Part shown: one piece after another, positions 14,553 through 42,173 of the stretch
Position numbering within the stretch: position 1 is the stretch's first letter
Layout of the letters: every line of letters starts with the position of its first letter
Assembly: GCF_020520425.1 (NCBI RefSeq)
Contig: NC_079492.1
Coordinates: 139,938,361-140,002,360 of the forward strand
Length of the DNA stretch: 64,000 nucleotides
Source of the DNA: Spinacia oleracea
Taxonomy: Eukaryota > Streptophyta > Magnoliopsida > Caryophyllales > Amaranthaceae
Direction of reading: 5' to 3'
Notes under the pieces: model-generated
Database searches by the model: none
What the model was told of the DNA's origin: nothing
What the model saw: the letters and a program-made list of their open reading frames with translations, nothing else
Translations under genes and position numbers: made by a program

Positions 14553-14584
14553 ATTATTATTATTATTATTATTATTATTATTAT
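14553..14584. repeat. (ATT)n microsatellite beside copy C
   Basis: Ten uninterrupted ATT units on the plus strand, i.e. (AAT)n in the sense of the inserted retrotransposon stub. Confidence 0.9.
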
Positions 14585-14648
14585 GGGAAAACACCAAAAC
14601 GTTACAAGCTTAACAAGCTACAAAGATCAAGTGAACTACAAGAAGTTA
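14585..14648 (-). mobile_element. Copy C: 64-bp 3' stub of the endonuclease-type non-LTR family
   Basis: This stretch repeats, with a few changes, the 3' untranslated end of copy A (14,756-14,822) and copy B (about 41,965-42,028), including the block AAGCTTGTAACGTTTTGGTG. It is an extremely 5'-truncated insertion with ATT/TTA repeats on both sides. Confidence 0.75.
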
Positions 14649-14650
14649 AC

Positions 14651-14755
14651 ATTATTATTATTATTATTATTATTATTATTATTATTATTATTATTATTAT
14701 TATTATTATTATTATTATTATTATTATTATTATTATTATTATTATTATTATTATT
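14651..14755. repeat. (TTA)n microsatellite, 105 bp, between copies C and A
   Basis: 35 uninterrupted TTA units. On the minus strand, the sense strand of copies C and A, this is (TAA)n lying directly after the 3' end of copy A. Confidence 0.92.
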
Positions 14756-15806
14756 GTGGGAAACCACCAAAACGTTACAAGCTTAACAAGCTACAAAGAT
14801 CAAGTAAACTACAAGAAGTTGGTGGGGAGCCGAGATACAATCTGGGCCGCCACTCCTCTAGCTATGGCGAACCCGATCCTGCTGAAAATGTGGGCAGCTG
14901 CCCGTGCCCCAATGTCTTGAGCCCTGGAGTACGTCTAGACCCGCTTCAGCAACGAAACAGCCACTTTCTCTAACTCCCCAAAAGAAGAGAAGGAAAAAGG
15001 AAAGAAACCGTAACCCAAAGCCCTACAACGTGCCGCATACTTATCCTGCTTCCGCTGCGCAGCAACCGCCACAACCCGACCCGGAACGAAGTCTGACAAC
15101 CCAGATTGCGTCATAGGTGAAGACCCAGTCAAGTCAACACACACATCTACACCGCCATCCCAAGAATAAAGCAATATATCTGCAGGACGAAGAGCTCCAT
15201 TACTCTCACTAGTCAGCCCAACATCAACCTCCTTACGAGCAGAAATCCCCGACCGATAGCAAATATCCAAAAGGGTATCACGAACAACATTATGTCGATG
15301 TTTAATACCCACAATCCCAGCACAAGACACGACATGATCCCCATAAATGTCCCCATCGAAAACCCGGGAGCAAGCAGAACACGACGTCGAATCAGAGAAC
15401 AACGGAATACCCAACAGATAGCAAAGAACCGAACGATAAGTCTTACCGTTCATAGTCTGGCCTAAACCCGAGATGGGGACTGCCCGCAACCAAGATGAGG
15501 AGTGATCCCCCTGCTGTGATTTCCAAAGGGCAACATGACGTGAAGATAAGGAGTAGGCAGATTCCGCATCGGCAGTAACCTTCGTGAAATATATGTCTGC
15601 CAATTTCTTCATGAGAGTGGGGGCAGCGATTTCACTAGGGCTACTCATAAGGTCGGTCTCCACGGTCCTATTGAAAAGACCAAGAGCATCATCAAAGGCC
15701 GACCCCGGACCATCAACACCTGAAAGCCGAAGAAGCGAATCCTGCAAACCACAAGACTGCAAACGGGATGCAAGAAAAGCATAATGCCGAACATCACCAG
15801 CTGAAT
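14756..15806 (-). mobile_element. Copy A: 5'-truncated non-LTR retrotransposon with CCHC and endonuclease-like C-terminus
   Basis: Copy A matches the last kilobase of copy B (about 40,979-42,028). The minus-strand 5' end is cut inside the coding region, directly against (TTA)n. The 3' end runs through the family untranslated region into another (TTA)n. It is thus embedded in a microsatellite on both sides, as expected for target-primed reverse transcription into TAA repeats with 5' truncation. Confidence 0.8.
14809..15806 (-). pseudogene. C-terminal part of the non-LTR retrotransposon protein (copy A)
   Basis: The frame is open from 15,762 to 14,938, then meets TAG at 14,935-14,937 where copy B has CAG. 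Beyond it the frame continues through TYSRAQDIGAR and AQIVSRLPTNFL to the family stop at 14,809-14,811. It holds a CCHC knuckle (CSACSRVF, then YGDHVVSC) and, about 60 residues later, RPADILLYSWDGG, VCVDLTGSSP and RKQDKYAARC. The spacing of Asp, Asp and Lys resembles the restriction-like endonuclease following the knuckle in R2/R4-type elements. No RT motif remains. The product would come from a truncated element and is not expected to work. Confidence 0.75.
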
Positions 15807-38639: not shown

Positions 38640-39980
38640 TGAAGGAAATAATGCCCTTGGTCCAAGTATGCATTCTATGTTAAGTCTAATAAATGCGGTT
38701 CAGTATTAATTAACAAGTTAATAATTCAGTGAGATCAAGTGAGCTGAATGCCTAGCTAGAGACCGCTTCAGTTCAAGTGGAATTAATGATATTAATCCAC
38801 AGCTTACTCTTGACTGAACCCGTAGGGTCACACAAATAGTACGTAAACGGATCAAGTATTTAATGGCATTAAATACTCCATCTATGAATATTCGGAACCG
38901 ACGGATCTTGGTTTCAGTGGGAGCTAAGATCGTCACAGGCAAGAAATGAATACTCCGGAAACGATGATATTGCCGGAAATGGAAATATGGATCGTATCGG
39001 AAATATGAATATTATCCAAGTCGTAGATGTTGCCGGAAACGGAAACATGGTACGTATCGGAAAATATTATTGGAAATGGAAATATTACCAGAATCGGAAA
39101 TATTGCCGGAAACGGAAATATTGTCAGAATCGGAAATATTACCGGAATCGGAAAATAATTCCGGAAACGGAAATATTAAATATTTGTTCGAAACGGAAAT
39201 TAATTCCGGAATCGGAAATATTAAATATTGTTCGTATCGGAAATAGATTCCGGAAATGGAAATTTAATCGGAAGCGTATCGTACGAATTAGCATCGGACG
39301 AGGCCTGCCGGACGAAGGCCCAGCACGAAGCCGGGCCATCGCCCAGCAAGCACGCACGCCACAAGCCCAGCGCGCACCAAGGCCACGGATGCGTGGGCCG
39401 CGCTGCGTGGGCTGCTGCTCGCATGCGCATGGGCAGCCCTTGTGGCTGCCGTGTGTGTGTGAGTTTGTGCTCATGCGTGATTCCTAAATCTACAAGAGTC
39501 AGTGTATGATTAAATTTCTATTCCTAATTGGATAAATTAATTAAATAGAATTCATGTAGGATTCTAATTTCAATTAATTCGTATCCTACTAGGATTACGA
39601 TTCCTTTTCCATAACTCTATAAATAAAGGCCTAGGGGTCATTATTTATACAACAAGTTTTAAGTATTCAAAACTAAGATTTTTAAGCAGAAAAATCAGCC
39701 AATATTCTTGCCTACCTAACCGAAAATATTAGAACCTTAAGGGCGATTCTAGTTGGTCAATCTTAAGGCGGATCCGGACGTGCTGTGGACTATCTACGGA
39801 GGGACGACACTTGGAGTCCTAAAGACTTGTTCTTGTTCGGTTCGGGCGCAGCAAGGGAGGGCACGCAACAAAGAGTATGCATCTAAATTATGCTATATGA
39901 TTATGTGTAAATAATATGTTTCCTGGCTTTATGGTTTTTCCGCATGATTTATGAACTGTCATATGAATCATAACCTAACA
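38640..39980 (+). repeat. 3' LTR of outer Copia (1,341 bp)
   Basis: Same as 19,305-20,645 except A at 39,157 in place of G at 19,822. TATA box at 39,618-39,625. Followed by the target duplication CCTCT. Confidence 0.93.
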
Positions 39981-41973
39981 CCTCTTACGCCACTGGTTAA
40001 GCCTGGTGGGGGTATTCGGCCTATTGCTGTGGGCACTATTTGGAGGCGCCTTGTTTCTAAGGTCGGCCGCGTTTAGGAAACTACTTTGGAGGTCTTCAGT
40101 TTGGAGTTCTTCAGCAGGTGGTGAGGCCATTCTCCATGCTGTCAACCGGTTGGTTGAGGCTCGTGGGGCCGATGTTGGCCTATCTTTGTTATTGGTGGAT
40201 TTTCAGAATGCTTTCAATTTAGTTGATCGATCGGCTTTGTTGCGTGAGGTTCGGCTCCATTGTCCTGCTCTTTCGCGTTGGGTTGAATTCTGCTACTCTT
40301 CTCCAGCGCGGCTGTATTATGGGGAGCATACCCTGTGGTCTTGTCAGGGTGTGCAGCAAGGGGATCCTCTCGGCCCTTTGCTTTTTCTCTGGTTCTACAT
40401 CCATTGGTGTGTCGAATTAGAGATTCATTTGATCTATCTCTTCAGGCTTGGTACTTAGACGATGGCACTATCGTTGGTGACACTTTGGTGGTTGGACAGG
40501 TCTTGGAGTTGATTTCGGAGGAGGGTCCTCGTTTAGGTCTCCATGTTAATGTTGAGAAGACGGAGGTTTTCTGGCTTTCGGAGGACCCACGCAGTCGTCT
40601 AGATGGTGTCTTTCCTACGGATATTGCTCGTCCTGCGCTTGGTGTTAAGTTGCTTGGTGGCCCAGTCAGTACGGATTCCTCTTTTTGTAGGGAGTTGGTT
40701 TCGCAGCGTGTGTCGAAGACTGTTGTGTTGATGGATGCTGTAGCCAAGCTTAATGATCCCCAGTGTGAGTTGTTGCTTCTTCGTGCGTGTACTAGAGTTT
40801 CTAAGCTCTACTTTGCTATGCGCACTTGTCCGCCTTATCTTTTCGAAGCGGCCCAATTATCTTTTGATGTGGCTCTGCGGGCTTCTTTAGAGCGCATCGT
40901 GGCTGCTTCGGGACCTGGGTTTGGTGTTGCAATGGCGCCTTGCCACCTTGCCTTATTCTTATGGAGGATTGGGTGTTTATTCAGCTGGTGATGTTCGGCA
41001 TTATGCTTTTCTTGCATCCCGTTTGCAGGCTTCTGGTTTGCGGATTCGCTTCTACGGCTTTCAGGTGTTGATGGTCCGGGACCGGCCTTTGATGATGCTC
41101 TTGGTCTTTTCAATAGGATCGTGGAGACCGACCTTATGCGTAGCCCTAGTGAGATCGCTGCCCCCAGACTCATGAAGAAATTGGCAGACATATATTTCAC
41201 GAAGGTTACTGCTGATGCGGAATCCGCCTACTCCTTATCTTCACGTCTTGTTGCCCTATGGGAATCACAGCAGGGGGATCACTCCTCAGCTTGGTTGCGG
41301 GCAGTCCCCAACTCGGGGTTAGGCCAGACTATGAACGGTAAGACTTATCGTTCGGTTCTTTGCTATCGGTTGGGTATTCCGTTGTTCTCTGATTCGACGC
41401 CGTGTTCAGCTTGCTCTCGGGTTTTCGACGGGGACATTTATGGGGATCATGCCGTGTCTTGTGCTGGGATTGTGGGTATCAAACATAGACATAATGTTGT
41501 TCGTGATACCCTTTTGGATATTTGCTATCGGTCGGGGATTTCTGCTCGCAAGGAGGTTGATGTTGGGCTGACTAGTGGGAGTGATGGAGCTCTTCGTCCT
41601 AAAGATATATTGCTTTACTCATGGGATGGAGGTCTAGATGTGTGTGTGGACTTGACTGGGTCTTCCCCTATGACGCAATCTGGGTTGTCAGGCTTCGTTC
41701 CGGGTCGGGTTGTGGCGGTTGCAGCGCAGCGGAAGCAGGATAAGTATGCGGCACGTTGTAGGGCTTTGGGTTACGGTTTCTCTCCTTTTTCCTTCTTTTC
41801 TTTTCGGGAATTAGAGAAAGGGGTTGTTTCTTTGATGAAGCGGGTCCAGACGTACTCCAGGGCTCAAGACATTGGGGCACGGGCAACTGCCCACATTTTC
41901 AGCAGGATCGGGTTCGCCATAGCTAGAGGAGTGGGGGCCCCAGATTGTATCTCGGCTCCCCTCCAACTTCTAG
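39981..41973 (+). pseudogene. RT, CCHC and endonuclease half of the copy B protein
   Basis: Resumes exactly after the Copia target duplication. In order: PGGGIRPIAVGTIWRRLVSK, RT motif A (LLLVDFQNAFNLVDR, Asp at 40,198), VQQGDPLGPLLF, and the catalytic YLDDGT (40,452-40,469). A thumb region follows, then the knuckle CSACSRVF/YGDHAVSC (41,402-41,462), RPKDILLYSWDGG (copy A has RPAD), CVDLTGSSP and RKQDKYAARC. The reading frame shifts near 40,065, 40,386, 40,935, 41,040 and 41,940. All domains are recognisable but no continuous protein can be made. The family stop is TAG at 41,971-41,973. Confidence 0.75.
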
Positions 41974-42028
41974 TAGTACACTTGTTCTTTGTAGCTTGTT
42001 AAGCTTGTAACGTTTTGGTGGTTTCCTT

Positions 42029-42173
42029 ATAATAATAATAATAATAATAATAATAATAATAATAATAATAATAATAATAATAATAATAATAATAATTTAT
42101 TATTATTATTATTATTATTATTATTATTATTATTATTATTATTATTATTATTATTATTATTATTATTATTATT
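42029..42173. repeat. (TAA)n then (TTA)n microsatellite after copy B
   Basis: About 68 bp of TAA/ATA units follow the 3' end of copy B. At 42,096 the repeat switches to TTA units for about 78 bp, making a large AT-only inverted repeat. Confidence 0.9.

Follow-up and report, generated by a model that had tools for sequence, protein, structure and literature searches.

A spinach non-LTR retrotransposon with a putative restriction-like endonuclease inserted into (TAA)n microsatellites

A 64,000-nucleotide stretch of the Spinacia oleracea genome (contig NC_079492.1, positions 139,938,361 to 140,002,360 of the forward strand; hereafter the window) contains three copies of one non-long-terminal-repeat (non-LTR) retrotransposon. 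Each copy (i, ii, and iii) has (TAA)n on both sides, and in all three the element sense strand carries TAA. Judged from its sequence, this is most likely a non-LTR retrotransposon, or long interspersed nuclear element (LINE), of the restriction-like-endonuclease (RLE, also REL) type that inserts into (TAA)n microsatellites. Its target specificity is very well supported by flanks collected across the genome. A preliminary description of the window, made from the letters alone, had set the three copies in (TAA)n tracts that border them at either end, the sense strand always reading TAA; the coordinates and the arrays reported by Tandem Repeats Finder (TRF) agree.

Results

Most element copies examined across the genome lie within TAA tracts

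Flanks were examined in 894 Mb of sequence (242 contigs, six of them large, 115–189 Mb). The 3′ anchor, an exact 17-mer (TTGTTAAGCTTGTAACG) that catches only copies with exactly these letters, has 229 forward and 247 reverse matches, and (TAA)4 lies within 30 nucleotides (nt) of 214 of the 229 forward matches. Reverse-strand tract counts were left out because overlapping matches inflate them; on C1, with both strands taken, a tract stands beside 27 of the 29 first 3′ anchors among the matches listed. The 5′ anchor, an exact 16-mer (AGGCGATTAGGGCACG), has 58 matches. All 58 upstream flanks were examined, and (TAA)4 or longer is found within 96 nt in 56 and within 30 nt in 50; one exception, L102, has an imperfect tract. 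The terminal 20-mer of the Copia LTR in the window served as a control: (TTA)4 lies within 30 nt of 4 of its 16,286 forward matches, a rate to be taken as about twice as high, still far below 1%, since roughly half of these ends face the inside of the LTR element. Within the window, the (TAA)4 12-mer has 109 matches on both strands against 0.06 expected from shuffles, and all except the one at 16160 fall within the six tracts at copy ends. These counts bear out the earlier claim of insertion into TAA microsatellites, and most of the examined copies lie within tracts on both sides.

Forty loci (numbered with L) were picked by protein similarity and never by their flanks. The first 20, taken with long flanks, rank next after the window's own copy; the second 20, each taken with a 701-bp window at the 5′ side, were also picked for their long open frames. 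In the first 20, all 23 3′ ends of family 1 (F1) run into TAA, though with roughly a dozen other bases in between at L051 and L054. The 5′ end is readable by eye in 34 of the 40 loci; in L044, L054, L056, L064, L071, and L075 another element lies inside or the end falls beyond the stretch. Of these 5′ ends, 32 have (TAA)4 or longer, which in L041 comes after about 50 nt of the 3′ end of another family and in L058 after 14 nt; one has an imperfect tract (L063) and one has none (L050). TAA also stands directly 5′ of truncated copies (window copies i and ii, L043, L053, L057), or 5′ of them after filler (L058, L041). Because 5′-truncated copies, too, have TAA on the 5′ side, the tract is a target of insertion and not merely a tail. 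The DNA outside the tracts is unrelated among several copies, for example L042, L045, and L049.

Queried with the C-terminal region, the genome yielded 2,592 first-look candidates, of which the best 125 were scored (91–100% identity), and copy counts are therefore lower bounds. An uninterrupted frame of more than 1,000 residues is present in 9 of the first 20 loci, and 12 near-full-length copies (66 pairs) differ by 0.1–4.7% across 3.2 kb of mostly coding sequence. Identity reaches 99.5–99.8% over 4.23 kb among three copies located at different sites, and their likeness stops within the TAA tracts. Since near-identical copies occupy different sites, the family is recently active.

The 3′ junction mostly keeps one phase

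In four families (F1, 28/30; F1b, 7/8; F2, 2/3; F3, 3/4), whose own 3′ ends are unlike, the first three-unit TAA run after the 3′ end starts ATAATAA at 40 junctions out of 45; two further 3′ anchors have no TAA run. A one-in-three binomial that ignores the kinship of the copies gives a probability of 1.4e-14. Genome-wide, tracts of at least 7 units start in the junction phase in 2,630 of 7,834 cases, versus 3,488 and 1,716 for the other phases. The 5′ junctions vary, the bases between tract and element differing from copy to copy. A set 3′ phase combined with variable 5′ junctions is the pattern expected of a nick in fixed phase that primes reverse transcription.

Four families share the target and stack upon one another

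The TAA target is common to four families of the element. The close family F1b is about 77% identical in protein sequence, the second family about 46–55% (queried with a piece beside one copy; best 150 of 1,198 candidates scored), and the third about 38–49%. Among ten stretches of the other families, TAA/TTA tracts of at least 4 units occur in L079–L083 and L086–L088. Families are stacked in L079, where a family-2 copy lies between pieces of family 1b with TAA/TTA tracts between them. In L041 the approximately 50 nt of family-2 3′ end separate a truncated family-1 copy from its TAA tract, a 5′ junction that may reflect a template jump of the reverse transcriptase (RT). Elsewhere, at least 11 TAA tracts, all in the same phase, crowd into the 1.1 kb of C1:40407209-40408296, where numerous very short insertions may have piled up.

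The protein carries several motifs of RLE-type LINEs

The element has a single open reading frame (ORF) of about 1,063 residues, which runs from two zinc-finger-like motifs through the RT and a CCHC knuckle of the form CX2CX11HX3C to RH…RPAD…DLTG…KQDKY. The motifs named in the preliminary description (YLDDGT, the CCHC knuckle, RPAD, DLTG, KQDKY) are present in the window copies. The N-terminal motifs, CX7CX15HX4H and CX2CX3HX5CXH, were read by eye; both are kept in a relative that is 36% identical there, and neither has a Pfam match or a Myb match. In the Pfam search with two proteins, RVT_1 (6e-14) was the sole match at E up to 1, and apurinic/apyrimidinic endonuclease (APE), zf-RVT, and RNase H gave none.

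The published signature of RLE LINEs has a knuckle of the form CX2-3CX7-8HX4C and RH where the first helix lies; PD…D follows, KX2KY on the second helix supplies the catalytic residue with its first K, and the fourth strand is followed by GXW (PMC5678591). RH (KHRHN), RPxD, D, and KX2KY (KQDKY) follow the CCHC motif in this order and match that signature, with P-A-D in RPAD instead of P-D and with DLTG 15 residues on. Eleven alignment rows and window copy iii were compared. The catalytic motifs are kept in most rows of the other families, and departures in single copies, such as RPTD in L083, are read as probable decay. By crude secondary-structure propensities, RPADILLYSW, DVCVDL, and YGFFPF would be strands and the KQDKY stretch helical, which weakly supports the assignment. 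The linker-endonuclease region is under purifying selection, with a dN/dS of about 0.12 (0.136/1.11, 288 codons) between F1 and F1b; dS is saturated for more distant pairs of families.

On these motifs the endonuclease is likely of RLE type. The REL endonuclease put forward in the preliminary description fits as to motifs and their order, while its PD-(D/E)XK fold found no such backing in structure models and PDB searches (see Discussion). Relatives were absent from two contig collections, viral_contigs and genome_contigs, and a comparison of the 5′ ends of 15 loci with Rfam gave no hepatitis delta virus-like or other ribozyme, six matches lying below gathering scores.

The reverse transcriptase is distant from L1

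Searches of the PDB with the full protein (phmmer) matched R2 at 2e-5, a group II intron RT at 0.012, and human L1 at 0.085; the corresponding profile values are 6e-8 for R2, 2.4e-6 for a group II-type RT, and 2.6e-6 for L1. A plant L1 from the same genome, taken as a control from a zf-RVT search (6,101 first-look candidates, best 150 scored), scores 2e-40 against human L1 and 4e-19 against R2. Going by these matches, the element's RT and L1 are not closely related. An 11-sequence RT tree rooted on group II, in which the references are R2, L1, and one group II intron RT and include no RTE, R4, NeSL, or CRE, joins R2 and L1 apart from this lineage (support 91/83), so that a deep branch outside R2 + L1 is the favoured placement. 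The preliminary description had held the family to be unlike the APE-type LINEs usual in plants; the distance from L1 and the best tree speak for this, but the approximately unbiased (AU) test retains a grouping with L1.

Discussion

Several observations weigh against a TAA-targeted LINE of RLE type. (TAA)4 is missing within 30 nt at 15 of the 229 forward 3′ ends, no TAA accompanies the full 5′ end of L093 or the 5′ side of the truncated L050, and two of the ten stretches of other families have no four-unit tract (only a short TAATAA run in L084, none in L085). Empty sites were not observed. The phase probability overstates the case, because the 45 junctions belong to related copies and, in a few instances (L051, L080), the run does not directly adjoin the end of the element. 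In the protein, the knuckle CX2CX10-11HX3C is in the right place with a spacing other than that published, GXW is absent, with GYGF or GYKF instead, and the catalytic set departs as RPKD (copy iii), RHAD (L079), RPAN (L085), N for the second D (L084), and VVLMG (L052). Models of the C-terminal domain have a mean predicted local distance difference test (pLDDT) score of 33 from a two-sequence alignment and 42 from a single sequence; the latter gave nothing meaningful in Foldseek (best E 0.23), as expected of such a model, and a PDB profile search with the C-terminus alone returned unrelated proteins (best E 0.07) and no credible match. In the AU test, constrained trees that place the lineage with R2 (0.16), with L1 (0.17), or within plant L1 (0.11) are none of them rejected.

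How TAA came to flank the element could be explained in other ways. Some LINEs, such as the Drosophila I element, end in TAA repeats (PMC3747384), and the tracts might be only a repetitive 3′ tail of this kind, copied from the element RNA upon untargeted insertion; a copy might be transcribed on into the TAA that follows it, and several copies share truncated types of 3′ end, for example GTTTT/ATAATAA (the slash marking the junction). Such a tail would give TAA at the 3′ end only and is therefore rejected as highly improbable, given TAA on the 5′ side of 56 of the 58 exact 5′ ends and of 5′-truncated copies. The same slight credence is due to a transposed unit with TAA at both ends, whose RNA would start in the upstream tract so that both tracts travel along. 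Nearly all full-length copies examined do have TAA at both ends, as this would require, but truncation would lose the upstream tract of the transcript, and the 5′-truncated copies i, ii, L043, L053, and L057 keep theirs; the differing bases between tract and element speak against it as well.

Other alternatives concern the enzyme. Insertion could be targeted to TAA with the nick supplied by host nicks, by breaks in AT-rich repeats, or by an unrecognised fold, the C-terminus being only an RNA- or DNA-binding module. The low pLDDT of the C-terminal models and the deviating knuckle spacing and GXW fit this account; RPxD, D, and KX2KY are nevertheless kept in most rows, across families at 38–56% identity, and the region is under purifying selection, which leaves the account unlikely. 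Least credible of all, and barely worth entertaining, is an ordinary plant L1 LINE of APE type with a preference for AT-rich sites. The AU test does not reject L1 groupings (p 0.11–0.17), yet Pfam finds no APE, zf-RVT, or RNase H, and the L1 control matches human L1 at 2e-40 where the TAA-element protein reaches 0.085, behind R2 at 2e-5.

If the element is indeed a TAA-targeted LINE of RLE type, insertion might proceed as follows. The single protein would bind its own RNA near the 3′ end, and the N-terminal zinc-finger-like motifs together with the endonuclease would recognise (TAA)n duplex DNA. The C-terminal endonuclease would nick the TTA strand, leaving a primer that ends …TTATTAT-3′. Target-primed reverse transcription would then begin at the RNA 3′ end, so that the 3′ junction takes the phase …/ATAATAATAA. 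The second strand would be cleaved and synthesised to variable end points, which could explain why 5′ junctions differ, why copies are 5′-truncated, and why one tract may receive several insertions.

Organization of the window

The features of the three copies are collected in Table 1. TRF reports ATT/ATA/TTA arrays at 14553, 14651, 15808, 17275, 42029, and 42097; five of the six directly border an element piece, and the sixth (42097) abuts the fifth (42029). Copies ii and iii form an inverted repeat (I5) with 95% identity over 899 nt. Copy iii is full length and lies on the plus strand in two parts, 17304-19304 and 39981-42028, split by a Copia-type nest with a 5-bp target duplication, CCTCT, at 19300-19304 and 39981-39985. 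The span 14553-42173 is accordingly for the most part Copia-type nest, not the LINE. The frame of copy iii is broken by stops at 18181, 18562, and 40,989, by several RT frame shifts around 40,300 and 40,930-41,030, and once more near the 3′ end; the RVT_1 match of its ORF 40287-40991 (E 0.001) is under the Pfam cut-off. Its catalytic motif is RPKD, against RPAD in copy ii.

Table 1. Copies of the retrotransposon, their TAA tracts, and the interrupting element in the window
Feature	Position	Strand	Basis or remark
(TAA)n, reads ATT on +	14553..14584	-	3′ flank of copy i; TRF, 100% matches
Copy i, 66-bp 3′ fragment	14585..14650	-	3′ end same as in copies ii and iii
(TAA)35	14651..14755	-	Common to copy i (5′ side) and copy ii (3′ side); TRF
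Copy ii, 5′-truncated, ~1.05 kb, linker and putative endonuclease region	14756..15807	-	Inverted repeat with copy iii; ORF 14935-15867
Copy ii linker, CCHC knuckle, RH..RPAD..DLTG..KQDKY	14938..15612	-	Aligned with three further families
(TAA)n	15808..15903	-	5′ flank of copy ii; TRF
(TAA)n, reads ATA	17275..17303	+	5′ flank of copy iii; TRF
Copy iii 5′ untranslated region, begins TTCTCTCTAGTAGGGCGATTAGGGCACG	17304..18126	+	Start motif common to other copies
Copy iii ORF, N-terminal half: two zinc-finger-like motifs, RT start	18127..19304	+	In-frame stops 18181, 18562
Copia-type LTR element with nested inverted relative, not part of the element	19305..39980	+	Terminal repeats, CCTCT duplication
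Copy iii RT part: GVQQGDPLGP (shifted frame), YLDDGT; frame broken	39981..40991	+	Sequence, RVT_1
Copy iii linker, CCHC knuckle, putative endonuclease motifs (RPKD variant)	41172..41846	+	92% identical to copy ii
Copy iii ORF end and 3′ untranslated region, ends GTAACGTTTTGGTGGTTTCCTT	41847..42028	+	Sequence; genome-wide 3′ anchor
(TAA)n	42029..42096	+	3′ flank of copy iii; TRF
(TTA)n abutting (TAA)n, palindromic microsatellite	42097..42173	-	TRF

The nest at 19305-39980 contains an inverted relative with an intact-looking frame of 1,347 residues (27706-31749, minus strand), so that the LINE, itself set in a microsatellite, holds one LTR element within another. It is flanked on both sides by an inverted repeat (380-1861 and 47735-49216; 1,482 nt, 100% complementary) with a 402-residue frame that we take to be F-box/DUF295-like. 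Two related frames at 52412-53128 and 56126-56827 resemble purine permeases.

Other repeats accompany TAA tracts. (TAA)n directly or nearly abuts (TTA)n on the outer side of copies in the window (42029-42173), L040, and L056. A sequence resembling a miniature inverted-repeat transposable element, GGGCAAAATTGTCTTTTCATG…CGCGGGC, was seen by eye beside some tracts of the window (15914-16150, 42174-42260) and upstream of tracts in L046, L060, and L069; it may itself insert at TAA tracts. L001–L008 (C1:313-317 kb) form a long array of TTATTATT(T)-type repeats. The element protein had no tblastn match in L001, L004, or L008, and some AT-rich arrays are therefore unrelated to the element.

Comparison with known systems

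Among animals, Dong represents LINEs of this type with a TAA target; retrotransposons with such an endonuclease are known chiefly from animals, with few descriptions from flowering plants. Site-specific retrotransposons with an RLE have been described from animals, oomycetes, and protists (PMC4640811, PMC5348765, PMC7998251), among them Utopia in Amoebozoa, SAR (stramenopiles, alveolates, and Rhizaria), and Opisthokonta (PMC4640811). A published tally of LINE families in flowering plants has only L1 (233) and RTE (7) (PMC3747384), in keeping with the remark of the preliminary description that the element is unlike the usual plant LINEs. Among the titles and abstract openings listed from the open-licence literature, none describes a flowering-plant LINE of RLE type that targets microsatellites.

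Dong, of the R4/Dong clade of animals, is similar in habit, being an RLE-type LINE that inserts into (TAA)n (PMC7998251), as the preliminary description had noted, or into microsatellites (PMC3636483). Its N-terminus is reported to be Myb-like without zinc fingers (PMC7998251), whereas the spinach protein has two zinc-finger-like motifs and no Myb match. R2 of animals shares the single ORF, an N-terminal CCHH-type finger (PMC5035012), RT, knuckle, and RLE motifs, and gives the best PDB matches by sequence. It differs in targeting 28S ribosomal DNA rather than TAA and in knuckle spacing, and its RT is 21–24% identical to that of the spinach element over the compared block. We suggest tentatively, as a view for which our confidence is limited, that the spinach elements belong to an undescribed, deep-branching clade of RLE LINEs in flowering plants, in which TAA targeting may have arisen independently of Dong, a zinc-finger pair may read the target, and stacking in tracts may provide a safe harbour.

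Plant L1 elements are likewise non-LTR elements of this genome and carry zf-RVT, and their RT is far from that of the TAA element. L1 carries an APE endonuclease, CRE proper comprises spliced-leader elements of trypanosomes, and similar proteins are widely annotated as "reverse transcriptase" in plants. A survey of spinach with MGEScan-nonLTR counted 642 full-length "CRE" and 22 "R2" LINEs (PMC6337768). These "CRE" LINEs may be the same elements as ours; the name is a program label, and the passages of the survey that treat them are silent on endonuclease, target, and clade (PMC6337768). An abundant, recently active, and target-specific plant lineage could explain LINEs labelled "CRE" or plain "reverse transcriptase." It would connect the activity of plant LINEs with microsatellites, and it would supply a naturally occurring integration enzyme whose target is a simple repeat on which cleavage is directly testable.

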